Virus record (IMG/VR): IMGVR_UViG_3300042453_005404
Span: 186,001-250,000 of that record
Source of the DNA: a virus
Length of the DNA stretch: 64,000 bases
Reading direction: 5' to 3' (one strand)
The notes under the pieces were generated by a model that did no database searches, had not been told where the DNA came from, and was given only the letters and a program-made list of their open reading frames with translations. Positions 15,417-56,602 of this stretch are shown piece by piece; the first letter of the stretch is position 1; the number at the start of each line of letters is the position of its first letter. The position numbers and the translations under genes were made by a program.

Positions 15417-16382
15417 ATGGAATACAAATACGAAGGTCATTCACTTAAATCCGGTATCTACAAAATCACAAACAAACTAAACGGAAGAATCTATATTGGT
15501 TCTGCTAAACGTTTCAAGGAACGGTGGCAATCTCACGTTTACTCTCTGAGAAATCAAAAACACAACAATAGTTTTCTTCAAGCGGATTTTAACAAATGCG
15601 GAGAAGAAGCATTTGTGTTCGAAGTATTGGAAGTTACAGAAGGCAAAACTAAAGAAGAACGTTTGTTGATTGAAGAAGTTTATATCGGGCAATATTACGA
15701 CAAAGGTAACAGCTGCTATAATCTGTGTAGCCGAGCGATATCTAGAGAAAACACAAAAAGCAAAAACCCAGAAGAAACAAAACGCAAGATATCGGCTGCC
15801 ACAAAAAAGATGTGGCAAGACCCAGAAAAAGCGGCTAGTATACGCAGCTCTATGAAAAGTGCGCTATCAGATCCAGAGACAGCCAAGCGTCATCAAGAGG
15901 GTCGCATTCGTTCGTGGGAAAACAATCAAGAACGTCGTGCCGCTGCTTCGCAACGTATGTCAGAACGTATGACAAACAATACGGAAGAAACAGAGAAAGT
16001 TGTAGAGATTCTAAAAGCATCACAACCTAAAGGCAGAGACACTTTTAGGAAACGAATGAAAGAAGATACAGAGCTTCGACAAACTTATGTTGATATTGCA
16101 AAAAAGAAAGCTGAAAATCTAAACGAGAGATACAAGAATGATGCTGAGTATAAAGCGATGATGGATAGAAAATCTATAGAGAACATCAAAGCGTATAACG
16201 AAAAACAAGCACAAAGCATACCAGTCAAAGCTCCTTTGGTATCACCAGATGGAATAGTTTATTCAGATGTTCGCAGTTTGAATGCATTTGCCAAAGAACA
16301 TGGTTTAGATTCAAGTTCTCTTTACAAGCTTTATTCTGGCAAGCTGAACGAAGTAAAAGGTTGGAAGCTATTTATAGAATAG
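15417..16382 (+). CDS. GIY-YIG homing endonuclease (I-TevI-like)
   Basis: Free-standing homing nuclease between the gp13-like and gp14-like genes. 321 residues. The nuclease domain is at 12-105 with GIY at 13-15, YIGSA at 26-30, Arg36, His40, Glu86 and Asn102, closely following I-TevI. NUMOD3-like repeats follow (NPEETKRKISAATKKMW, DPEKAASI, DPETAKRHQEG). The C-terminal helix-turn-helix module holds SPDGIVYSDVRSLNAFAKEH and KGWKLF. Its target is unknown but probably lies in a neighbouring neck gene of phages lacking it. SD AGGAGAGG lies in a hairpin (15380-15407). Confidence 0.93.
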   Translation: MEYKYEGHSLKSGIYKITNKLNGRIYIGSAKRFKERWQSHVYSLRNQKHNNSFLQADFNKCGEEAFVFEVLEVTEGKTKEERLLIEEVYIGQYYDKGNSCYNLCSRAISRENTKSKNPEETKRKISAATKKMWQDPEKAASIRSSMKSALSDPETAKRHQEGRIRSWENNQERRAAASQRMSERMTNNTEETEKVVEILKASQPKGRDTFRKRMKEDTELRQTYVDIAKKKAENLNERYKNDAEYKAMMDRKSIENIKAYNEKQAQSIPVKAPLVSPDGIVYSDVRSLNAFAKEHGLDSSSLYKLYSGKLNEVKGWKLFIE

Positions 16383-17144: not shown

Positions 17145-17152
17145 CTAGTTAT
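17145..17152 (+). promoter_or_regulatory. Late-promoter-like octamer CTAGTTAT
   Basis: Exact match to the CTANTTAT family, ending only 5 bases before the ATG of the gp15-like gene. A transcript from it would be leaderless, so this copy may be fortuitous or may drive leaderless translation. Confidence 0.25.
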
Positions 17153-17157
17153 ATTGC

Positions 17158-18366
17158 ATGACAACACGTTACAACATTCCATATCAAGAAGGTAAAGCTC
17201 AGTTAGATACTGGCTATGATCTTCAAAACAACGATCCTTCAACATTTTACATACCTTCATGTGGCATTGAAGACGTTGATGCAGCTATGCACGCTTTGTT
17301 CGACAAAGATATACCGTTTAAAACGTATCAAGCAAACACAACCTATGAAAAAGAAATCAACTTAAAAAAACCATTTGTTGTGTTGGCAACAGGTGAAAGA
17401 TTTGCTCTTGCAAAGCGTTTAAAGCCTTTTAGAGATCGAGCGGGTGTATTACTACTTCCAGCTATATCAATCCGCAGAACAACTATTGAACAAGCTTCTG
17501 GTGACACATTTGTTGGAGAGCTTACAATCAAACGTAGATTAGATGCATCTGATAAAGATTACCAATCACTTATCAATCGCTTGCTTTTAAAAAACGTTCC
17601 CAATCCTCCTGATACAACAAGAGGCAATAAAGGTGAAAACCAAAATGATCCTTCTATTCGTGAAGGAATGCTTTTAGACAACAAAACAAATCGTTTAAGA
17701 GCCGATCACATCTATGAGATTATCGCAATACCTTTTCCACAGTTTTTTACGGTGACTTATGAGATTGTGTTTTGGACCAACTACACGCAACATATGAACT
17801 ATTTGCTGGAAACAATGCTTGCAAGTCAGATTGTTCCCGGCAAAGGTTTTTATCTTAAAAGCGACAAAGGTTATTGGTTTTCTGCAACAGTTGACAGCGG
17901 TCTTACTGCTCAAGATAACTTTGACGATATTACCGATCAAGAAAGATTAATCAAGTACAGCTTTAACGTAACCGTTAGAGGTTATTTGTTGGCTCCGTCT
18001 GGCCCCGGACAAAAAGTTCCATTTAAACGTTATCTTTCGAACGTCAACATATCTTTTGAAACATATATCGCAGATGGAAATGTGTTAGAACAACCAGCTA
18101 TCAATCAATATAATGAAACCAAAAATGATTTCACAAAAGAAAATCCTTATGTGTTAACTGATATTGAGCAAGACCCAACAACCAAGCAAAAACCAACCGA
18201 ACAAGAAAAGCTGATATTTGAACGAGTATATCGTGATCCAACAAATCAAAACGTTAAGCAAACAAAGTACGTGAAACAAATGTCTAACAATCAAAAACAA
18301 GGCGAAACAGTTTATACAGCTTCTGACCAACAAGCTTTGTTTGATTTCTTTGTTGATAACGAGTGA
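17158..18366 (+). CDS. Tail terminator / sheath stabiliser (T4 gp15-like)
   Basis: 402 residues (T4 gp15 has 272). The region IPFPQFFTVTYEIVFWTNYT with MNYLLETMLASQI (about 208-240) and GYWFSATVDSGLTAQDNFDD is characteristic of gp15/gp3-type proteins that cap the sheath and tube and bind the neck. The C-terminal 80 residues are polar and probably flexible. It lies immediately before the sheath genes. No clear SD is visible. Confidence 0.82.
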   Translation: MTTRYNIPYQEGKAQLDTGYDLQNNDPSTFYIPSCGIEDVDAAMHALFDKDIPFKTYQANTTYEKEINLKKPFVVLATGERFALAKRLKPFRDRAGVLLLPAISIRRTTIEQASGDTFVGELTIKRRLDASDKDYQSLINRLLLKNVPNPPDTTRGNKGENQNDPSIREGMLLDNKTNRLRADHIYEIIAIPFPQFFTVTYEIVFWTNYTQHMNYLLETMLASQIVPGKGFYLKSDKGYWFSATVDSGLTAQDNFDDITDQERLIKYSFNVTVRGYLLAPSGPGQKVPFKRYLSNVNISFETYIADGNVLEQPAINQYNETKNDFTKENPYVLTDIEQDPTTKQKPTEQEKLIFERVYRDPTNQNVKQTKYVKQMSNNQKQGETVYTASDQQALFDFFVDNE

Positions 18367-18445: not shown

Positions 18446-21400
18446 ATGCCAGAAACAGTTTTAAAAGCCCCAAATTACTTTGATCGTGAGTTTGACTTAA
18501 CTGAACGAACGATTCCTGTGGGTGGAACTCCTGCAACCGTTATTGGTGGAGCAGAAAGAGGCCCAGCATTCGTACCAGTAACACTTGGTAGCTACACAGA
18601 TTTTGTTAATAAGTTTGGTGATGTAAATCCAAAATTTGTTGGCTCATATGGAGCCAAAGCATTTTTGGATGCAAAAGGAAGTGAACTTGCATCTGTCAAC
18701 TATATACGTATTCTTGGATGTGGTGCAAACAATACCTCGGTAGATATATCAACAACAGAAGCAGAAGGCACTGTTACAAATGCTGGTATGCAAGTTGTTG
18801 GAAACGGTACCGTGTTCGCTTCTGGGGCTCTTCAAGGACGTGTACAGTTTCTTGTTGGCAAACACGCAGTACAAACAAACGAAGTGTTTGGTATGCCAGA
18901 CTTTACCAACAACTCCAGCTATAACGTAAGTGGTTTCGGTGTAGACAATGACACCGTAAATCTTGTTCGTGCAGTTTTGTTCACAACCCCGGATTCACGC
19001 TTTCTTGTGTTGAGTGGTGCAGTTGATGCTGGTGGTGTATTCAACCCAACAGCTTATTTGTCTGCATTAGGCACCAATGAAGCGGCTCAAGTTGGTACCG
19101 AAGGACCAATGTCAGGTTTGTTTAAACTAGTTTTATCATGCTCTGCTGGTTCAAGCTTTGCTTCTGATGATGGTGTGGCTGGCCTTAAGATCTTTTCAGC
19201 TTCGCTCGATCCAACTTCAACACAATATGTTGGCAAGCTTTTAAACACAAACCCAGAAGATTTTGCATCAAAAAAACACTTGCTGTATTTGGATTACGCA
19301 GTTGATGCCGAGGTAGCCGCATTGTCGGCAAGTAACTCGGTTGCAACAGTTGCAGTGTTGTCGGGTTCCAGTAACACAAACAGTTTCGGCCACACATTTG
19401 GTAGAGCATTTGGTTTTTTCAACACACGTTTTAAAACACCAAAAACTTCATACTTTATCTCGCAACCATTTGGTGGAATTGAATATGATTTGTTTTATGT
19501 TGAAAGTCGTGACGATGGTGCGTTTGCCAACAGCAAATACAAAATCAGCATATCAAATATTCAAGCTTCAACAAATCCATCAACCAAATATGGATCGTTC
19601 ACTTTGTCTGTGAGAGCATTCAATGACACAGACGCAGAACCTCAAATCCTTGAACAGTTCAACAATCTTTCTCTTGATCCAGCCAGTGCCAATTACGTGG
19701 CAAGAGCAATTGGTGACAAGCGTACTCAATTCAACTTCGATGCAGTCGATTCAGATGATCGTGGAGTTGTCGTTCTTGGCAAATATGGCAACCGCAGCAG
19801 ATTTATTCGTGTTGTTCCAAGCTCACAACTTGAGAACGAGGAAGTACCAGAACTAGCTCTTCCATTCGGTTTCCGTGGTCATCAAATGCTTCTTACGAAC
19901 GTAGCACTGACTGACCAAACTGGTTCAGTGCCACTGAACCAAACCCGTATTTCTGGTGTTTCTGGAAGCCTTGCAGGTGGAGGTTGTGATTTGTCTGGGT
20001 CGATTGTTCCACCGGTTCCATATCGCTTTACAATCACCCGCAACCCACTTGCAAACACAGGAACAACATTTGGGGCTCCCGGCACACAAACAGTCCTAGA
20101 TGGTCGTCTTTACTGGGGTGTTAAGTTCGAACGCAATAACAACAATGTGCTAAACACGAACGTAAATGCAGAAATCAATCCAATTGTTGCGAACTTTTCC
20201 AAGTTCGCAGGCATCGAAAAACAAGAAGTATTGACTACTGGGTCTGCAAGCGATCTTTTGAACGATAATAAGTTCTCACTTGCGAGAGTTGCATTGAACG
20301 TAACTACGATGACGGCTGTGGCTTCAACAGACGTGCCAACATTGATGAAGTCTGCTGCATATCTTCGCAATGCAGAAATCGACCCAACCACGTATGCTGC
20401 AACAAACTTTAGCAACCGTTTGACCTTTGCATCGCTACTAAACAGTGGCAGTGCTGTGCAATATAACAACTTCTCAAATTATGCTAAGTTCACAACCTTT
20501 ATGCAAGGTGGATGGGATGGAGTTAACATCTTTGACAAGCAAGCAGCTAGATTCACCGATCAATCAACTTCTACCGAATCAGGAGCGGGTGGTGTATATG
20601 GTCTTGCAAATGCAAGCTATGTTTCTCCCGGTGCCCCAACAGCAACAAACTATACTGGTGTAGACTCTGCAAACCAAAACGTTGTTGCATATCGCACAGC
20701 ACTAGACATTGCAACCAACTCAAGCATTGCCAACAACAATATTCTTGCAACACCGGGACAACGTGATCCGCTTGTAACCAACTATGCTCTAGAGAAAAAC
20801 ACAAGCTACGGTTTGAGCTTTTATCTTCTAGACATTCAACCATATGACAAAGATAGCGTTCGTATCTTTGATGGTGAAGCAGGCCGATATGTGTCTATTG
20901 GCAAAACAACAAATTTGTTTTTAAATCGTGCTTTGGATAACAATGCCGCTGCTGCTTATTTCCCAAACATTGTTGTTGATGACACTGTTAACACTCGCCG
21001 TGTAACTCTCCCAGCTTCTATTGCAGCAATCTCTGCACTAAGCTACAACGACCGTGTTAAGTTCCCATGGTTTGCTCCAGCAGGATTTGATCGTGGTTCT
21101 CTAAACTTTGTTCTTCAAACATCTATCAGAGTTAACCAAACAGATCGTAACACACTTTATGATGCAAACATTAACCCAATTGTGAAGTTTCCCGGTGCAA
21201 ACTATGTGTTCTTCTCACAAAACACTCTACAACAAGCTGAAAGTGCTTTGGAAAGCATTAACGTTAAACGTATGATACTGGAAGTCAAACGTCAGATTGT
21301 TGCTATCGGCAATCGTTTGATCTTTGAACAAAACACTCCAGCACTACGCACACGTTTTGTTAGCGAAGCATCTTTGGTTCTTGCAACAGTCAAACTTCAA

Positions 21401-21562
21401 CAAGGCATCGAACAGTTCGCAGTTATCTGTGATGAACGGAACAACAGCGCAGAAGACGTTAACAGCAACCGTATGAATGCACAAATCAGAGTGCTTCCAA
21501 CAAGAGCAATCGAATACGTTGTAATGGATTTCGTTGTGTTGCCATCGGGAGTTGCATTGTAG
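18446..21562 (+). CDS. Tail sheath protein, paralogue 1 (T4 gp18-like)
   Basis: Contractile sheath subunit. 1038 residues (T4 gp18 has 659). The N-terminus is family-typical: an APNYFDREFDLTERTIPVGG start, then GAERGPAFVPVTLGSYTDFV at about 36-55. The C-terminal core is KFPWFAPAGFDRGSLNF, NPIVKFPGANYVFFSQNTL and VKRMILEVKRQIVAIGNRLI, ending with IEYVVMDFVV. The extra length is in central beta-rich domains that would face outward. It is followed by a terminator and a second, separately promoted paralogue. Confidence 0.95.
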   Translation: MPETVLKAPNYFDREFDLTERTIPVGGTPATVIGGAERGPAFVPVTLGSYTDFVNKFGDVNPKFVGSYGAKAFLDAKGSELASVNYIRILGCGANNTSVDISTTEAEGTVTNAGMQVVGNGTVFASGALQGRVQFLVGKHAVQTNEVFGMPDFTNNSSYNVSGFGVDNDTVNLVRAVLFTTPDSRFLVLSGAVDAGGVFNPTAYLSALGTNEAAQVGTEGPMSGLFKLVLSCSAGSSFASDDGVAGLKIFSASLDPTSTQYVGKLLNTNPEDFASKKHLLYLDYAVDAEVAALSASNSVATVAVLSGSSNTNSFGHTFGRAFGFFNTRFKTPKTSYFISQPFGGIEYDLFYVESRDDGAFANSKYKISISNIQASTNPSTKYGSFTLSVRAFNDTDAEPQILEQFNNLSLDPASANYVARAIGDKRTQFNFDAVDSDDRGVVVLGKYGNRSRFIRVVPSSQLENEEVPELALPFGFRGHQMLLTNVALTDQTGSVPLNQTRISGVSGSLAGGGCDLSGSIVPPVPYRFTITRNPLANTGTTFGAPGTQTVLDGRLYWGVKFERNNNNVLNTNVNAEINPIVANFSKFAGIEKQEVLTTGSASDLLNDNKFSLARVALNVTTMTAVASTDVPTLMKSAAYLRNAEIDPTTYAATNFSNRLTFASLLNSGSAVQYNNFSNYAKFTTFMQGGWDGVNIFDKQAARFTDQSTSTESGAGGVYGLANASYVSPGAPTATNYTGVDSANQNVVAYRTALDIATNSSIANNNILATPGQRDPLVTNYALEKNTSYGLSFYLLDIQPYDKDSVRIFDGEAGRYVSIGKTTNLFLNRALDNNAAAAYFPNIVVDDTVNTRRVTLPASIAAISALSYNDRVKFPWFAPAGFDRGSLNFVLQTSIRVNQTDRNTLYDANINPIVKFPGANYVFFSQNTLQQAESALESINVKRMILEVKRQIVAIGNRLIFEQNTPALRTRFVSEASLVLATVKLQQGIEQFAVICDERNNSAEDVNSNRMNAQIRVLPTRAIEYVVMDFVVLPSGVAL

Positions 21563-21677: not shown

Positions 21678-24600
21678 ATGGCATTATTAAGCCCCGGCGT
21701 ACTAGCAAGAGAATTTGACATCAGTCAGCCAAGAACAACAACACCTTCTGGTGTTCCTGCTTTGGTTATTTCTACAACAACCAAAGGCCCAGCGTTTGTT
21801 CCAACCATGGTTACAACATTGTCACAATACGTATCAGTGTTTGGAGGAGTGAATGCTAACACACCATTAGGCTATCTTTCTGCAAGAGAATGGTTTGGGA
21901 ACACAGGCGTTCCTCTTATGCAGCTTAGAGTGCTTGGAGCTGGCCAAGGCTTGGCACGTAACGCAAATGGTACTGTGACTGACGCAGGCTTTATTGTTGG
22001 TGCTCAACAGCCAAGCGGATCTGGCGGGGCTCTGGGAGATAACGTGTTTGCAAACGCTACAGGTGTAACCGGGTCTGTATATATGCTTGGTTGCTTTATG
22101 AGCGAATCATTAGATTCAACATATCTTTCTGATGCAGGATTGCAAAACGATACAACGGCGGTACCAATCATTCGTGGTGTGTTGTTTGCTCCATCTGGTG
22201 TTGTTCTTCGTTTGTCTTCCGCAGCGCAGCCATCAAATGCACCCGCTTCAAACTTTGTTGCGACTGAAACTAGCTTTTCTGGTGGATTCACTGGGTCTGT
22301 TTCTTTAAGCGCCGGTCAACAAAACTTTGTAATGATTCTTAACGGCCATAAAGGAACAGATCTACGCTATCCAAATGCAATCACTGCCAGCTTTGACCCA
22401 CAAGCCGTCAACTATTTTCCAAGTGTATTCAATACCGATCCTCTTAAAACTCAAGAAGCTGGCCACTTGTTATATGCAAGCTTTGATGTTTATTCTGCAA
22501 TAGCAGTACCAACTGGTTCTGGTATAATCGAAGCAGCTAGCGGATCAGCTTTTGGAACCTTGCAAAATATTGCATTTATTGTTCCTTCTTCTGGTTCTGC
22601 TGCAACACACACATCGAATGTAGGTTCTAGCATTACACCAAACTTTGAAGGATTTGAAGATCGTTACGGTCACGCTTTTTCTCCTTGGGTGATATCGCAA
22701 GGATTTGGTGGAGTTCCACAAAATCTTTTCCGTTTTCATCATCTTTCGGCTGGTGAATCAGGAAACGGCGATGTAAAGATATCAATCACGAATATTCAAC
22801 CGGGAACGGCAACAAGTCCATATGGTGTGTTTACAGTGCTTGTCAAATCGATGACCGGATTGGATGGAGATGGAGCCTTGGAAACGTTTACCAATTGCTC
22901 GCTTGATCCAAGTTCACCAAACTATATCGCTCGTAAGATTGGTACCATTAACACGTTTTTTAACTTTGATACCGATGTTGCTTCACAAAAAGTAACAACA
23001 GATGGATCATATCCAAACAAATCAAATTATGTTCGTGTTGAAGTTGCTGATGCTGTTGATGCTGGTGAAATCGATCCTTCGGCTATGCCGTTTGGTTTCC
23101 GAGGCCCTCAACACCTTGTCACGCAAGGTTCGAGCTCTCTTTACAACATTAAACAAGGAGACTTGACAAATCCAGCTTTCCCATACTTCTCAAATCTTGC
23201 TGGTGGTTCTGGAGGCGGTGTGCCTCTATACAAAGCATCTCAACCACCAGTTCCAATGCGCCTAAACCTTAAGAAGCTTGCTGCTTCTTCTGGTGTTGAT
23301 ACAGGACTTTATTGGGGCGTGCAGTTCGAAAACGTAACAAGTCTTTCTGATCCAAACGGCAGCAATATATTCAATCCAAGCTTGCTTGGATATAGCAGAT
23401 ACTTTCCAAATCTTGTAGGATCAACAAACGTACAACCAGCGGTATTTGACAACAACGGTTCTGCTACAACTACCGCAAATGGAATCGTTGATTCCGATCT
23501 CTTTAACAATAACCTTTTCTCTCTAGAAAAGGTTAAGATTGTTACAGGTTCGGGTGATCGTCCAAACACCACCACCGCTGCTCTTCTAAGCTGGAGTTAC
23601 GTTCGTGCGGGTGGTATTGCCGCAGATGAAGCTACAAAAACAAGAGCGTTGTCTGTAAATGATCTTGTGGAAAACGCAGCGGTACAAACACTTGCCAAAT
23701 TTAGCTTTTATCTTGAACGTGGTTTTGACGGCGTAAGAATCTTTAACCCAGACACACGTTATCTTAAGAACGCTGCGGTGGCTCAAGAAATCACACAAAC
23801 AACTCGTGGTTTAACAAATGGTCCAACGGTTAGAAGCTATTTGAAGAGCATTGACATTATCTCAGATGTAAACGATGTTAACATTCAACTTCTTACAATA
23901 CCCGGCATACGTGATCGTTATGTCACCGACACAGCAATCGCCGCTGTAGAAAATGATCGATTTGATTGTTTCTATATCATGGACCCAGAACAATACGATG
24001 TAAACGGAACGTCAATCACAGGTTCATATGAAACTGTAAACGTTTCACAAACAGCAGCAGCGTTTGTTGCCCGTGGAGTTAACTCAAGTTTCGTTGCAAC
24101 TTACTTCCCAGATGTAAACATTGTTGGACCAACTGGTACAGTTTATGAAAAGGTACCACCATCTGTTGCAGTTCTTGGTGCGTTTGCTAAGAACGATACA
24201 GTTGGTCAACCATTCAATGCACCAGCAGGCTTTACAAGAGGCACGCTAACTAACGTAACAGATTTTGCTGTATCACTCAACCAAGCCAACTCTGATATCC
24301 TTTACGTGGCAAGATTGAATCTTCTTCTTTCCAAATCAGGCGTTGGTCCAGTTGTTTGGGGTCAAAAAACTCTACTCAACAAAGACAGCTTGCTTAACAG
24401 AGTTAACGTAAGAAGACTTTTGATCGCAATTCGTCGTGATGTGCGTGCGGTTGCAACACGCTTCTTGTTCGAACCAGCACAGTCTTCAACGCTTGCAGCA
24501 TTTAATGCAGCAGTTCAACCAATCATGGCACGTTACCAATCTGCTGGTGGTGTAGAAAAATACAAAGTTGTTATTGACACAACAACTACAACACAAGCCG

Positions 24601-24710
24601 ATTTGGACAACAAAACTCTGCGTGGAAAGATTTTCCTAATCCCAACCACATCTCTAGAGTTCTTCACAATCGACTTCTTTGTTACAAATCGTGACAGCTT
24701 CGTTGGTTAA
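21678..24710 (+). CDS. Tail sheath protein, paralogue 2 (T4 gp18-like)
   Basis: 1010 residues, clearly paralogous to the preceding gene. The N-terminus (SPGVLAREFDISQPRTTTPS, TKGPAFVPTMVTTLSQYVSV) and C-terminus (FNAPAGFTRGTLTN, VVWGQKTLLNKDSLLNRVNV, TSLEFFTIDFFV) match. The central regions also share short blocks such as SLDPSSPNYIARKIGT and MPFGFRGPQHL. Two diverged full-length sheath genes suggest a mixed sheath, a sheath with two zones, or swapping between forms. SD CGGAG. Confidence 0.95.
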   Translation: MALLSPGVLAREFDISQPRTTTPSGVPALVISTTTKGPAFVPTMVTTLSQYVSVFGGVNANTPLGYLSAREWFGNTGVPLMQLRVLGAGQGLARNANGTVTDAGFIVGAQQPSGSGGALGDNVFANATGVTGSVYMLGCFMSESLDSTYLSDAGLQNDTTAVPIIRGVLFAPSGVVLRLSSAAQPSNAPASNFVATETSFSGGFTGSVSLSAGQQNFVMILNGHKGTDLRYPNAITASFDPQAVNYFPSVFNTDPLKTQEAGHLLYASFDVYSAIAVPTGSGIIEAASGSAFGTLQNIAFIVPSSGSAATHTSNVGSSITPNFEGFEDRYGHAFSPWVISQGFGGVPQNLFRFHHLSAGESGNGDVKISITNIQPGTATSPYGVFTVLVKSMTGLDGDGALETFTNCSLDPSSPNYIARKIGTINTFFNFDTDVASQKVTTDGSYPNKSNYVRVEVADAVDAGEIDPSAMPFGFRGPQHLVTQGSSSLYNIKQGDLTNPAFPYFSNLAGGSGGGVPLYKASQPPVPMRLNLKKLAASSGVDTGLYWGVQFENVTSLSDPNGSNIFNPSLLGYSRYFPNLVGSTNVQPAVFDNNGSATTTANGIVDSDLFNNNLFSLEKVKIVTGSGDRPNTTTAALLSWSYVRAGGIAADEATKTRALSVNDLVENAAVQTLAKFSFYLERGFDGVRIFNPDTRYLKNAAVAQEITQTTRGLTNGPTVRSYLKSIDIISDVNDVNIQLLTIPGIRDRYVTDTAIAAVENDRFDCFYIMDPEQYDVNGTSITGSYETVNVSQTAAAFVARGVNSSFVATYFPDVNIVGPTGTVYEKVPPSVAVLGAFAKNDTVGQPFNAPAGFTRGTLTNVTDFAVSLNQANSDILYVARLNLLLSKSGVGPVVWGQKTLLNKDSLLNRVNVRRLLIAIRRDVRAVATRFLFEPAQSSTLAAFNAAVQPIMARYQSAGGVEKYKVVIDTTTTTQADLDNKTLRGKIFLIPTTSLEFFTIDFFVTNRDSFVG

Positions 24711-36599: not shown

Positions 36600-37391
36600 A
36601 TGTATTTACTGATTATGATCAAATTGTTAAATATATTGTTTGAGGTTGACAGTTGGGATGATTATGATATCGATATCAGAACGGGTAAGCTTATTCCAAA
36701 AGCTTCTGCTCCAGTAAAACCGAAACAAGAACCAGACGAACCCGAAGGTGGTGTGCTTGGCAAATATGTTTTTGGAGATATTAGAAAAAATCTTGGGCAA
36801 AACATTGAGCAAGAAGCCGACACTCAGTTAGAAAAAGATATCTATAACGCACTTGTTTTCTATACATCGTTCAACACCAAAACGAACTTAAATCGAGTTG
36901 CCTTGAAAATGAAAGAGATAAGCGATTCTGGAAAGTATCGTGAGTATTTTTCTGTTCCTTCTGCAACGGCGTGGCGGGTTTTGATTGACATATCGAAGTC
37001 AAATCTTGAGAATATTCTTGGTAAGGAAACTAACAAAGATCTTGGTGTAGAAAGCAGTGGGATTATAGCTCCAAGAAGCGATTCAAGTTTCACTGGTTGG
37101 ACACTTGATCCTAAAGCTACGATTAAAATTTATAGTCAAGCAAGATTCGAATCTGTTTCCAAAGAAAGTTCTGATGGTTATATAGTTCTCGCAAAGTGCG
37201 AGACAACCTCGAACGATTTCTTTTTCAACGTTGACGCTGCGATGAAATATATTTCTGTAGGTGGTTCACCTTATGATTATCAAAAAGAAGTGTTAGCTTA
37301 TGGGACTGTTAATGCATCCGGCGTTGCTTACATGAAAAAGAAAGATATAAAACACAATCCAGTTCAAGAGCTACTAAAGCTACTTATGTGA
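36600..37391 (+). CDS. Putative ADP-ribosyltransferase with capsid-targeting-like N-terminus
   Basis: 263 residues. The N-terminus MIKLLNILFE (from an in-frame Met at 36615) matches the T4 Alt-type capsid-targeting pattern with an LxE cut site. The body shows an R-S-E-like layout: TAWRVLIDI (Arg), SSFTGWTL (Ser-Phe-Thr) and YDYQKEVLAYG (Gln-x-Glu). This suggests ADP-ribosyl transfer, as in T4 Alt, which is packaged and injected. The fold call is inference from sparse motifs. SD GGGAGG is strong; 36600 and 36615 are both possible starts. Confidence 0.6.
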   Translation: MYLLIMIKLLNILFEVDSWDDYDIDIRTGKLIPKASAPVKPKQEPDEPEGGVLGKYVFGDIRKNLGQNIEQEADTQLEKDIYNALVFYTSFNTKTNLNRVALKMKEISDSGKYREYFSVPSATAWRVLIDISKSNLENILGKETNKDLGVESSGIIAPRSDSSFTGWTLDPKATIKIYSQARFESVSKESSDGYIVLAKCETTSNDFFFNVDAAMKYISVGGSPYDYQKEVLAYGTVNASGVAYMKKKDIKHNPVQELLKLLM

Positions 37392-37392
37392 C

Positions 37393-37569
37393 ATGACCAA
37401 ACTATATAATATACTTTTCGAAACAGGTCCATCTGCTCAAAGTGCTATTCCAACTCTGGGAGATGATCCAAGAAGAGTTTCTAGAACAGGCGTTGCTGCA
37501 CAAGATGCTGGGTTTTTAGACATAGTTGACACAATGGGCTTGGACATGGACAGTCCAGAAGATGATTAG
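37393..37569 (+). CDS. Small protein sharing the capsid-targeting-like N-terminus
   Basis: 58 residues: MTKLYNILFETGPSAQSAIP, ending MDSPEDD. The first ten residues match those of the preceding protein (MIKLLNILFE), with the same L-F-E site. Its ATG follows the previous stop by one base, so the two genes are coupled. It may be a packaged peptide or a degenerate paralogue. It is too short to place in a family. Confidence 0.6.
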   Translation: MTKLYNILFETGPSAQSAIPTLGDDPRRVSRTGVAAQDAGFLDIVDTMGLDMDSPEDD

Positions 37570-37651: not shown

Positions 37652-38497
37652 ATGACCACAAAAATGTTAGACAAAGAACGTTTGCAAAAAGTTATTCAAG
37701 AAGCTGTTGGTAATGTACTCAGCAATAGCGGAGTCTTGGAAAAACCTGTTATAAAGCAGGTTGTTGATGCTGGTAAAAAGCTTTTGAAAGAAGCTGTGAT
37801 TATCATGCCACGATCTTTTGTGATGAAAGGTGAAGTTCAATCACCAACCACAAAAGAAAATCATGAAAAGCTTTACAAGAGTTATGTTGACAGTTTCAAC
37901 AAGATATCCAGCAAGCTTGACACTGTACCAAAAACAGACGCTGACAACAATAACGACTCAGAGTTTCGCAGATTAAAGCAAGATGAAGTTCACAACATGA
38001 ATGGTGTAAAGCTTCATGAGTTATACTTCACAAACTCTGGAGACGTGAATAGCGAGATACGTGCTGACTCTGTACCCTTTATGCGTCTTGGCCGTGATTG
38101 GGGTACATTCGATCAATGGCAGCTAGATTTCAGAGCTTGCGGTATGTCTGCAAGAGAAGGTTGGGTTATTTGTTACTTTGATCCATTCAAGCAACAATAT
38201 TTTAACTGCTTTATTGAAGGTCACACAATCAATCTTCCTTTGATGTGTATTCCAGTGCTTGTGATAGACACATGGCATCATGCATGGTTTTATGATTATC
38301 CCGGCGAAAAGATGGATTATCTCAACAAGTCAATGCGTGAGATTAATTGGAACGTTGTGGAGATGAGAATGCTTGCAGCAGAAATGGCAAAATTGAATCA
38401 GTTGTATGCAATTCAACCGGTTATTTCTAATGAGAAAGAACGTGGAGTAACTCTTCCAGAAGTAATGCCACCTGTAGAAGTTCTAGGGAGCCGCTAA
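37652..38497 (+). CDS. Fe/Mn superoxide-dismutase-like protein
   Basis: 281 residues. Residues about 66-240 follow the Fe/Mn-SOD pattern: ENHEKLYKSYVDSFNKI (69-85), KLHELYFTNSG with His122, GTFDQWQLDF (151-160), GWVICYFDP and DTWHHAWFYDYPGEKMDYLN with Asp206 and His210. Three of four metal ligands are present; the first His appears replaced by Asn70, with a His at 71. The N-terminus MTTKMLDKERLQKVIQEAV is an added helix with an I-Q-E site, suggesting capsid targeting. It may be a true dismutase or a structural derivative. It overlaps the next gene by one base. Confidence 0.75.
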   Translation: MTTKMLDKERLQKVIQEAVGNVLSNSGVLEKPVIKQVVDAGKKLLKEAVIIMPRSFVMKGEVQSPTTKENHEKLYKSYVDSFNKISSKLDTVPKTDADNNNDSEFRRLKQDEVHNMNGVKLHELYFTNSGDVNSEIRADSVPFMRLGRDWGTFDQWQLDFRACGMSAREGWVICYFDPFKQQYFNCFIEGHTINLPLMCIPVLVIDTWHHAWFYDYPGEKMDYLNKSMREINWNVVEMRMLAAEMAKLNQLYAIQPVISNEKERGVTLPEVMPPVEVLGSR

Positions 38498-39514: not shown

Positions 39515-39850
39515 ATGCCAAAAAGAAAAAAAGCAATTGAGACTAATTCTGAAGAGTCGAATATTATAGCCAGTTCTGAGGTTAACGTAAACGAGTTGTT
39601 TGTAAAATTGAAAGAATTCGAAAACAAAGCTTTGATAGATAAGTTAAAGATTTTAGAGCGCAAACTAGATTTGCTACAAAAAGCTTACGTGCTAGATCGA
39701 ACAATGCTAAAAGAAATCAAACAACACGTAAGCTACCTAAGCCTTGCACATGAAGAACTTTTAAATAATCTTTACAGTGAAGCTCCTTATCATAACGAGG
39801 ATACCCAAGTATCCAACACAACAGAAAAAAGTGAAAAAAAATGGAACTAG
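39515..39850 (+). CDS. Coiled-coil hypothetical protein
   Basis: 111 residues. Residues about 25-95 form a long helix (NELFVKLKEFENKALIDKLK, ILERKLDLLQKAYVLDRTML) with hydrophobic heptads. The ends are polar. It overlaps the next gene by 10 bases. No known family. Confidence 0.65.
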   Translation: MPKRKKAIETNSEESNIIASSEVNVNELFVKLKEFENKALIDKLKILERKLDLLQKAYVLDRTMLKEIKQHVSYLSLAHEELLNNLYSEAPYHNEDTQVSNTTEKSEKKWN

Positions 39851-40290
39851 CAATAAAACTTAAAACGTATTTTGCAAAATTGTGGTATTACGTAAAGCTT
39901 TATTGGAAAGAAATTGGCTTTGCTGTTGCATTTATATACTTGTTGTTTTTTGTCAAGCAAAAAACAAACTTGATTGAAGAGTTGCTTCAAGAAAGAGAAA
40001 AAGCACACAAAGAGCATAAAGAAAATATTGACAAGCTTAACCAACAAATACAAAACGAAATAGCAACACGAAGAAAAATTGAATCAGACTTTCGAATATT
40101 GATTGATCGTATAAACAAACAACACGCTGATGAAATCAAAAGAATTGCTTTGGTGCGAGAAGAAGAAATAAAAGAACTCATTCGGCGGCATCATAACAAT
40201 CCAACAATAATGGCACAAACAATAAACGATTTGTTTGGTATACCAGTTATGACTGTTGCACCTGATAGACAAACATGGGAACCTCAATAA
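39841..40290 (+). CDS. Membrane-anchored coiled coil, possible inner-membrane spanin
   Basis: 149 residues. One membrane span near residues 24-40 (EIGFAVAFIYLLFFVK), then a long periplasmic-type coiled coil (LLQEREKAHKEHKENIDKLN). The layout is that of Rz-like spanins, which fuse inner and outer membranes at lysis. The next gene encodes a lipoprotein and starts on this gene's stop codon (TAATG), as spanin pairs often do. No sequence homology is claimed. Confidence 0.55.
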   Translation: MELAIKLKTYFAKLWYYVKLYWKEIGFAVAFIYLLFFVKQKTNLIEELLQEREKAHKEHKENIDKLNQQIQNEIATRRKIESDFRILIDRINKQHADEIKRIALVREEEIKELIRRHHNNPTIMAQTINDLFGIPVMTVAPDRQTWEPQ

Positions 40291-40883
40291 TGAAAACCAA
40301 GTTAATATCTGGCTTACTTGTTGCTTTAATAGCTTGCAAAAAACCTGCAATCAACATACGCTCACAGCCAACTGTTTCAGAGCTAACAAACATTAACATG
40401 TCTGTGTATAACGTTCAACGCTCGCCCGAACCAACTGCGTTGTCTGTTAGATCTATTCTTGGTAATGAAACAGCAAGAAACATGGGAGCACAATCAATCT
40501 ACATCTATAATGCAAACACACCCAACCCAGTTAGACCTTATGTTCTAGGGCCATGGAACGGATTGTGTATCAACGAATCGTCTGTTAATCACATTGCTGC
40601 TTCATTTACTCAAGTTGTTCGAAGCGTACAAAATGATGAATTCTTGAGACTGCAAACTCTTAGCGGTCATGCTCAACGAGATATTGCATTGCTGCAATCT
40701 GATTTTCGTTCAGTTAGAAATGGTTATATCGCACAAATAAACGAGCGTGATATATCGCTGAGAGAATCTCAGCGAACTATCGATACCTTAAGACGTAACA
40801 ACGTATGGACAAGTGTTGGAGTAGGAGTTGGTGGGATTCTTTTAGGACTTGGTATTTCTGGTATCTTCCTACTTACAAGATAG
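40290..40883 (+). CDS. Lipoprotein, possible outer-membrane partner of the preceding protein
   Basis: 197 residues from the ATG overlapping the upstream stop. The signal sequence MKTKLISGLLVALIACKK has a lipobox LIAC with Cys16. A helical segment (about 120-165) and a C-terminal hydrophobic segment (SVGVGVGGILLGLGISGIFL) follow. Two membrane anchors are unusual for a classical o-spanin. Its place between a single-span coiled-coil protein and a small two-span protein supports a lysis role, by inference. Confidence 0.6.
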   Translation: MKTKLISGLLVALIACKKPAINIRSQPTVSELTNINMSVYNVQRSPEPTALSVRSILGNETARNMGAQSIYIYNANTPNPVRPYVLGPWNGLCINESSVNHIAASFTQVVRSVQNDEFLRLQTLSGHAQRDIALLQSDFRSVRNGYIAQINERDISLRESQRTIDTLRRNNVWTSVGVGVGGILLGLGISGIFLLTR

Positions 40884-40895
40884 GAGAATACATAT

Positions 40896-41126
40896 ATGTC
40901 TTTGTTATTAAAAAACAGCGATGGCAAACCTAGTTTAAGCTACACCATGGTATATACTTCTTTTGTTGTGTCTTTGATTTGGTTTGCATTGTCGGTATTC
41001 AAGATTCCTCATGTTAAAGATTTCGACGTTACCACGGTAACTGGGTTCTTAACTCCACTCATGGCTCTGTACTTTGGTCGTCGTTGGAATGAAAAAACCA
41101 ACTCAAGCGAAGAGCCAACATCGTAA
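40896..41126 (+). CDS. Small two-span membrane protein (holin-like candidate)
   Basis: 76 residues with spans at about 16-36 (MVYTSFVVSLIWFALSVF) and 48-62 (FLTPLMALYFG), a GKPSLSYTM turn before the first and a charged tail. Many phages encode such proteins near lysis genes. The endolysin is 1.2 kb downstream. SD AGGAG. A holin role is plausible, not shown. Confidence 0.6.
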   Translation: MSLLLKNSDGKPSLSYTMVYTSFVVSLIWFALSVFKIPHVKDFDVTTVTGFLTPLMALYFGRRWNEKTNSSEEPTS

Positions 41127-41731: not shown

Positions 41732-41739
41732 ATATTTAT
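41732..41739 (+). promoter_or_regulatory. Late-promoter-like octamer ATATTTAT
   Basis: One mismatch from CTATTTAT, 35 bases before the ATG at 41775, which has SD AGGAGG. Confidence 0.35.
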
Positions 41740-41774
41740 TCACAAACCTAAAGAAAAGGTAGGAGGATTTAAAT

Positions 41775-42242
41775 ATGTCAGTTTCAACAACAATCGACTC
41801 AACACTAGGCGTAGTTTCAACAGTAGATCCAGCTGGCGCTTCGAGCCCCGGTGCAGTAAATATTAACACCGGAGGAACAGTAACTGTTGCTGGTTTGCAA
41901 GCCCCAGTTATTTCTCTTACAACAGCAGCAACACTTTCAGCAGCACAAGCTGGTGTATTCACCTTTGGTACAGGTGGTGCTCCCGTAACATATGTGATGC
42001 CACTTGCTTCAAGCTGCCCCGGCGCAGTATTTACATTCCGTTCAGTAACAGCACAAGCCAATGCCCTTACTTGCTCACAAGAAGCGGCTGGTACAAAAGC
42101 TTTCACTGACGGAACATCAGCAGGTCAAGGCTCAAAAGTTGCTGTTGCTAACGTTATTGGAAGCTCTGTGTCACTTCTTTCCGATGGTAAGAACTTCCTA
42201 GTAATCGGCAACAGCGGTTCCCTAACTTTCTCCGGTACCTGA
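41775..42242 (+). CDS. Probable virion decoration or fibre protein
   Basis: 155 residues, beta-rich, Gly/Ser/Thr/Ala-dominated and Cys-poor (NINTGGTVTVAGLQAPVISL, VIGNSGSLTFSGT). Codon bias is like that of the capsid gene, suggesting a high-copy virion protein. A strong SD (AGGAGG) precedes it and a hairpin terminator follows. No named family. Confidence 0.7.
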   Translation: MSVSTTIDSTLGVVSTVDPAGASSPGAVNINTGGTVTVAGLQAPVISLTTAATLSAAQAGVFTFGTGGAPVTYVMPLASSCPGAVFTFRSVTAQANALTCSQEAAGTKAFTDGTSAGQGSKVAVANVIGSSVSLLSDGKNFLVIGNSGSLTFSGT

Positions 42243-42272
42243 TTCTTAGCGTTTAGCTAAATCAAAACAAAG

Positions 42273-42305
42273 CCTCCTGCTAGTTATCTAGCAGGAGGTT
42301 TTCTT
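42273..42305 (+). promoter_or_regulatory. Hairpin/terminator covering the endolysin SD, containing CTAGTTAT
   Basis: CCTCCTGCTAG (42273-42283) and CTAGCAGGAGG (42288-42298) form an 11-bp perfect stem with loop TTAT, followed by TTTTCTT and the endolysin ATG at 42306. The 3' arm contains the SD AGGAGG. The 5' arm plus loop contains CTAGTTAT (42280-42287). It can terminate read-through RNA or hide the SD, while RNA started inside it would be free to translate. Confidence 0.75.
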
Positions 42306-43121
42306 ATGTCTATAATCCTAAATGAAGTTAAACTTGAAATACCAAATGTTAAAACAACAAGTTGGTTAGATGAAGAAGCAGCAGCTAAAAAGATCAAGCA
42401 AGTAACTGATAAAACAGTAAGATCGACGTGGATACGCTCGATTGTGTGTCACACTGTACATGGCAAGCTTGGCAGTCTTTTGCCGGGAGTAGGTCCAGAA
42501 GGTGATGCGGCAGAAAGATATGCACAATATCAAACCAACACAAAACGTAGCGTTAGCTGGGATTTTACTTGTGATTTGGATGGAAGTTGGATAATCCAAA
42601 ACGATCCATTGAAATTTTATACATGGCAAGCATCAAGTGTTAACGGTTACACATGCGGTTTTGAATTAGTTCAGTTAAACAATGGAGATTTATACGAGGG
42701 ACAGATAGCCAAGGCTGTCGAGTTTATTGATTTTCTAACAGCCAAACTTGGCATACAACGTCAAATCCCATGGGATATGAAAAACAACTGTCCTCCAAAG
42801 GGTATCGTTAGTCGTATTGCTGGATCTAATAATGGCAGAGACGTTATTGGTGTTTATTGTCACTATCATCAAACTACAAATCGTGGGCAAGGTGATCCCG
42901 GTCCATATCTTCAACAAGCTTTAAAGGCCGCTGGATATGAGACTTATGCATTTGATGGAGATGACGATAAAGCGGTCTGGAAGGTCCGTCAGAAGGCTTT
43001 AGGTTTTGCTGATAAAGATTGTGATGGAGTTCCCGGTCCTGCCACTGTAAGGGCTTTAAAAGCGTCTGGCAAGGCACATGGTATTTGGGTTAAACGTCCT
43101 ATCGATGATTTAATCAAGTGA
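42306..43121 (+). CDS. Endolysin: N-acetylmuramoyl-L-alanine amidase with peptidoglycan-binding domain
   Basis: 271 residues. Residues about 40-205 form an amidase-2-type domain: SIVCHTVHG with a zinc-type His, SVSWDFTCDLDGSWIIQNDP, and VIGVYCHYHQTTNRGQGDPG with the later His and a CHYH/DPG motif. Residues about 215-260 resemble a peptidoglycan-binding repeat (DDDKAVWKVRQKALGFADKD, then GVPGPATVRALKASG). It cleaves the cell wall at lysis. Translation is probably controlled by the hairpin over its SD. It overlaps the convergent gene by 8 bases. Confidence 0.88.
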   Translation: MSIILNEVKLEIPNVKTTSWLDEEAAAKKIKQVTDKTVRSTWIRSIVCHTVHGKLGSLLPGVGPEGDAAERYAQYQTNTKRSVSWDFTCDLDGSWIIQNDPLKFYTWQASSVNGYTCGFELVQLNNGDLYEGQIAKAVEFIDFLTAKLGIQRQIPWDMKNNCPPKGIVSRIAGSNNGRDVIGVYCHYHQTTNRGQGDPGPYLQQALKAAGYETYAFDGDDDKAVWKVRQKALGFADKDCDGVPGPATVRALKASGKAHGIWVKRPIDDLIK

Positions 43122-56551: not shown

Positions 56552-56562
56552 AACCATTTTAT

Positions 56563-56602
56563 TAGCCCCTCTGTTATACTTAAGGTAGAAACAGAGGGGC
56601 TA
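56563..56602 (+). promoter_or_regulatory. 13-bp hairpin covering the SD, promoter-like loop
   Basis: 56563-56575 (TAGCCCCTCTGTT) pairs perfectly with 56590-56602. The 3' arm includes GAGGGG, the only SD candidate, and ends at the ATG. The 14-base loop is ATACTTAAGGTAGA. There is no T run, so it is not a normal terminator; an SD-masking role fits better. Confidence 0.65.

Follow-up and report, generated by a model that had tools for sequence, protein, structure and literature searches.

A Shine-Dalgarno hairpin overlapping a putative late promoter precedes the endolysin gene of an uncultured jumbo phage and resembles the lock of T4 gene e

Introduction

The lock on gene e of phage T4 lowers lysozyme synthesis about 100-fold, as measured (PMC3014915). 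Hairpins that sequester the ribosome-binding site are likewise described for T4 I-TevI, soc and 49 and for mobE of phage Aeh1, where the position of the late promoter keeps the inhibitory helix from forming in late RNA (PMC2988022, PMC3014915).

Here we describe an endolysin leader from an uncultured jumbo phage that shares the main traits of T4 gene e (PMC3014915): it serves a lysis gene, AGGAGG is located in the 3' arm of a leader hairpin, a putative late promoter octamer occupies 5' arm and loop immediately 5' of the Shine-Dalgarno sequence (SD), and the late RNA is predicted to lose the 5' arm. As in T4 I-TevI, soc and 49 and Aeh1 mobE, promoter placement would preclude the inhibitory helix in late RNA, here judged from sequence alone and in different genes and phages. 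Unlike in gene e, the promoter follows [CA]TANTTAT rather than T4 TATAAATA, the enzyme is an amidase and not T4 lysozyme, the stem is GC-rich with a U-rich tail behind it and twice as stable (-24.6 versus -12.6 kcal/mol in T4), and the gene just upstream appears to be late, not early. By sequence, the phage is not closely related to T4. Our search, which left most subscription papers out of reach, found no literature on this jumbo-phage clade.

The endolysin Shine-Dalgarno sequence is predicted to pair in a stable hairpin

The phage is represented by an IMG/VR record of 260,466 bases (G000), and its bases 186001-250000 were analysed as one stretch of 64,000 nucleotides (the window), with genes called by a home-made ORF scorer. 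The features of the locus are, in window coordinates:

42269-42302, + strand: whole hairpin, 15 pairs and a 4-nt loop, terminator-like with a T-rich tail, -24.6 kcal/mol locally
42273-42283, + strand: 5' arm (anti-SD), perfect 11-bp core CCTCCTGCTAG, with covariation
42293-42298, + strand: Shine-Dalgarno sequence AGGAGG, wholly within the 3' arm
42299-42305, + strand: TTTTCTT, spacer between SD and ATG, possible terminator U-tract
42280-42287, + strand: late-type promoter octamer CTAGTTAT ([CA]TANTTAT family), in 5' arm and loop
42293, + strand: predicted start of transcription, 6 nt downstream of the octamer
42306-43121, + strand: endolysin, N-acetylmuramoyl-L-alanine amidase type, 271 aa, with family matches
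41775-42242, + strand: gene directly upstream of the endolysin, 155 aa, no family match
41732-41739, + strand: late octamer of the 41775-42242 gene, ATATTTAT, with a predicted start A at 41745

A sequence-only reading of this DNA had described a perfect 11-bp stem ending 7 bases before the endolysin ATG, with AGGAGG in its 3' arm and a promoter-like octamer in its 5' arm and loop, and this geometry is confirmed. The 3' arm CTAGCAGGAGG (42288-42298) is perfectly complementary to CCTCCTGCTAG across the loop TTAT (42284-42287), AGGAGG is separated by 7 nt from the ATG at 42306, and CTAGTTAT lies at 42280-42287. The full stem of 15 pairs includes one G.U, its outer part being made of the A/T flanks. 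The folding energy of a 121-nt region is -32 kcal/mol; dinucleotide shuffles reach -15.7 +/- 2.9 (z -5.5), and none of 200 folds as well. The computed mean SD unpaired probability is ~0.0001 in the read-through RNA and about 0.36-0.375 in the predicted late RNA starting at 42293. The same computation applied to T4 gene e (sequence from AF158101) yields a near-identical change, from 0.0006 in read-through to 0.39 in late RNA.

The endolysin identity of the 42306 ORF, likewise proposed beforehand, is backed by modest matches to the PHROG endolysin family (E 3e-6) and to Pfam Amidase_2 (E 2e-5; 25.2 bits, just below the 26-bit cut-off). In relatives, the endolysin is preceded by a gene whose start or end is similar to that of 41775-42242, and this gene is the likely source of read-through RNA into the endolysin. 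Its octamer ATATTTAT is matched in most relatives, and the nearest promoter candidate upstream of the endolysin is late-type. In the leader of this gene (41740-41774), the late octamer is followed by a small hairpin of ACCT...AGGT type just 5' of AGGAGG, whose arms appear to covary in G006-G008.

Translations of the genes 1-2.5 kb upstream of the endolysin indicate a coiled-coil protein with an N-terminal membrane helix (39841-40290), a lipobox protein encoded by an overlapping gene (40275-40883) and a small, holin-like two-helix membrane protein (40896-41126); judged by these predictions, they would fit a lysis module consisting of a spanin-like pair and a holin-like protein. Further upstream, 37652-38497 encodes an iron/manganese superoxide dismutase domain protein in this phage (Pfam Sod_Fe_C, E 3e-15).

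Pairing of the Shine-Dalgarno sequence is conserved with covariation

Eight endolysin relatives with DNA, all metagenomic fragments, were compared (G001-G008; 64-79% protein identity). The SD-pairing hairpin is kept in seven of them and weakened in G005. Pairs were counted on hand-anchored arms and not on the MAFFT alignment (A3), because the latter misplaced G008; double compensatory changes were thereby detected in 9 of the 15 pair columns. Covariation reaches the SD itself in two columns (C-G to U-A in G007, U-A to G-C in G008), and G001 displays a stem extension, GAGAA/UUCUC. In computed read-through RNA, the SD is locked in eight of the nine homologues, with unpaired probabilities of 0.000 in seven and 0.16 in G006, compared with a median of 0.39 for 440 genes; in the predicted late RNAs of the homologues the value rises to 0.30-0.68. 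Computation and covariation hence agree that the SD is sequestered by the upstream arm in longer transcripts.

Only about 6 pairs of the hairpin remain in G005 and the SD is half open, with SD and octamer still present; the lock therefore appears not to be indispensable in this relative. Endolysin homologues further away, at no more than 54% identity, are without the structure, which makes the lock a trait of this clade.

The octamer is one of a family of putative late-type promoter elements

As an exact word, CTAGTTAT is not over-represented, with 3 occurrences in the window against 1.6 expected and 9 in the whole of G000 against 25 for the reversed pattern. An enriched genome-wide word was rejected on these terms: only a degenerate family upstream of genes is enriched, and the significance of CTAGTTAT is its position and its degenerate family, not its word count. 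Word counts upstream of called G000 genes gave prominence to CTATTTAT, CTACTTA, TACTTAT, CTAGTTA and CTATATAT; an unguided EM motif search returned SD and A-rich tracts only. The motif [CA]TA[CTG]TTA[TA], defined after the endolysin octamer had been seen yet tested on other genes, recurs upstream of 17 further genes at positions matched between orthologs; two tail sheath genes and the tail tube gene are among them. This amounts to 44 ortholog pairs with the endolysin excluded, whereas 300 column-permuted motifs average 1.6 and reach 16 at most. Where a gene has the strict form CTANTTAT, 21 of 44 ortholog pairs retain it, compared with 3 of 204 for genes without it (endolysin counted).

Late transcription of T4 starts 6 nt downstream of the octamer. 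At exactly this offset, A is enriched in the phage studied here, being present at 12 of the 16 CTANTTAT sites of G000 (75%, binomial p 1e-3) and at 20 of 24 in the relatives (83%, p 6e-7, an optimistic value because the sites are partly orthologous), against a background of 33-34%. Together with the conserved octamer, the A at +6 places the predicted endolysin start on 42293, the first A of AGGAGG, and initiation there would remove the 5' arm. With this predicted start, the late promoter is positioned to yield RNA without the arm. All nine endolysin homologues have the octamer 18-23 nt from the ATG, and its TAnnTA core is invariant in all nine leaders, including that of G005, where pairing makes no demand; off-consensus octamers are present in G007 and G008 (CTATCTAT, CTATTTAC). 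No sigma70 -10/-35 site was detected at the octamer in a pattern scan. The T4 late octamer TATAAATA shows no enrichment upstream of genes (1 forward versus 1.2 expected), the octamer of this phage being [CA]TANTTA[TA]. Microcystis phage Mel-JY01, a distant named relative, has no octamer before its sheath gene.

Outside the window, G000 encodes a gp55-like sigma: the protein G000:67924-68661 matches PHROG phrog_234, the T4 gp55 late sigma family, with a modest E-value of 3e-4. Within its own family, phrog_234 is matched by 14 of 15 scanned members and Sigma70_r2 by 6 of 15, weakly for single members, and a profile-profile comparison with T4 gp55 gave a probability of only 14%. The one clamp family searched, phrog_223 (T4-type sliding clamp gp45), yielded no match. 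A multisubunit phage RNA polymerase was considered and rejected, as PF00562 (beta domain) has no match; the simplest reading would be a host RNA polymerase redirected by the gp55-like sigma. With a conserved family at 17 other genes, an A at +6 and this sigma homologue, the octamer goes beyond the description "promoter-like" given to it beforehand, and sequence comparison supports it as a conserved, late-type promoter element.

Some octamers lie close to their genes. Putative late octamers end 5-6 nt before the ATG at 17145-17158, 37380-37393 and G000:158616-159845 (- strand), and the placement at 17158 is also found in G001 and G002. As transcription is predicted to start 6 nt downstream of the octamer, the corresponding late mRNAs would have little or no leader. 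The two tail sheath genes (18446-21562 and 21678-24710) are neighbours that each code for about 1000 aa and have their own CTATTTAT, and a strong terminator is located right before the octamer of the second, likewise in several relatives.

A proposed read-through lock with an internal late promoter

We propose that the palindrome combines a read-through lock with an internal late promoter, tying endolysin output to its own promoter as in T4 gene e, and assign this reading a probability of about 0.77. In RNA derived from upstream, the 5' arm CCUCCUGCUAG would pair with the SD and leave the endolysin untranslated, and some of this RNA would probably end at the U-rich tail. In DNA, 5' arm and loop would act as the late-type octamer, which host RNA polymerase would probably recognise together with the phage gp55-like sigma. 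The resulting transcript would begin at about 42293 as AGGAGGUUUUCUUAUG and, lacking the 5' arm, expose the SD for endolysin translation. Endolysin output would thus follow its own promoter, uncoupled from neighbouring transcription units, and the benefit may lie in lysis timing or dose.

The sequence-only reading had invoked the full design of T4 gene e, with silencing on early transcripts. An SD lock with covariation, a late-type octamer and a T4-like computed change in SD exposure agree with that design; early silencing of the endolysin is possible but unproven. Because the upstream gene 41775-42242 has its own late octamer, the read-through that reaches the endolysin may come late and in abundance instead of early, and the lock may serve to shield endolysin dose from the neighbour as much as to set timing.

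Termination at TTTTCTT, suggested as a second lock, is plausible, and we give about even odds to termination as an added function of the hairpin. A GC stem followed by a U-run is present in the window and in G007 (TTTTTT) and degraded in G001 (TTCTCTT), G003 (TTTCCTT) and G006 (TATTTC), so that the tail varies more than the stem and several relatives with intact SD pairing have an interrupted or short T-run. In G001, the tail change is compensated by GAGAA in the 5' arm and therefore serves pairing, not termination.

The structure shares a GC-rich stem, 4-nt loop and T-rich tail with ordinary intrinsic terminators but differs from them in that its 3' arm is the SD of the next gene, its tail the spacer, and its 5' arm and loop a promoter octamer. 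If the hairpin were mainly the intrinsic terminator of the 41775-42242 transcript, with SD and octamer overlapping it through compact packing only, the GC stem before TTTTCTT, the TTTTTT of G007, the similarity to other intergenic terminators of the genome and the terminator immediately ahead of the second tail sheath gene's late octamer, in this phage and in relatives, would be accounted for. We nevertheless hold this to be unlikely, as the stem covaries while the T-run is not maintained in G001, G003 and G006, SD pairing is kept in eight of nine, and the TAnnTA core is invariant even though the loop part needs no pairing. The lock alone would also permit control without any internal promoter, through temperature, an RNase or an RNA-binding protein. 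This would leave unexplained why the octamer keeps its distance from the ATG in all nine homologues, even in G005 with its weak hairpin, and why it also precedes structural genes devoid of an SD lock; with a stem of -24.6 kcal/mol being too stable for a simple thermoswitch, such control is highly improbable. An accidental palindrome with an incidental octamer, the endolysin being translated from the upstream message as usual, would be compatible with the unremarkable frequency of CTAGTTAT, but is contradicted by conservation, covariation and the position-specific promoter family, and we give it hardly any credence.

A read-through lock with its own late promoter would bring the way T4 controls production of its lysis enzyme, a textbook case, to an uncultured lineage of jumbo phages that uses a different promoter sequence, and a T4-like lock in another lineage would imply convergent or very old regulation. 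The lineage also gains a late-promoter consensus, a start site and a sigma factor that can be put to the test, and by which late genes may become callable from sequence alone.

Similar locks elsewhere in the genome

Genome-wide, 29 genes carry a lock, compared with a mean of 3 under an unconditional null. When octamer and 3' part were held fixed (conditional null), the non-endolysin locks numbered 16 against a mean of 8.8 and a maximum of 14; because this excess is small, recurrence beyond the endolysin is only suggestive. The GIY-YIG endonuclease gene 15417-16382 has its SD locked in a hairpin with CTATATAC in the loop. SDs of GIY-YIG endonuclease genes in G002, G005 and G006 are similarly locked, the loops of the group holding CTATATAC or GTATATAC, and these locks recall T4 I-TevI and segB (PMC2988022). 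Our broader proposal is tentative, and we rate it somewhat below an even chance: the 34-nt palindrome would have a triple role, ending the transcript of a late structural gene, locking the SD on read-through RNA and, when used as a late promoter, deleting both. The clade would have reused it as a cassette for the endolysin, GIY-YIG endonucleases and some other genes, independently of the T4 lineage.

A 13-bp hairpin at 56560-56602, TAGCCCCTCTGTT...AACAGAGGGGCTA, has ATACTTAA in the loop and runs up to the ATG of a gene encoding 689 aa (56603); it was rejected as a conserved second case, its orthologues being without the lock. Outside the window, at G000:105030-105095, two divergent genes have a single palindrome in common, TCCTTTTTGTAG...CTACAAAAAGGA, which locks the SD of each and displays octamer-like words on both strands.
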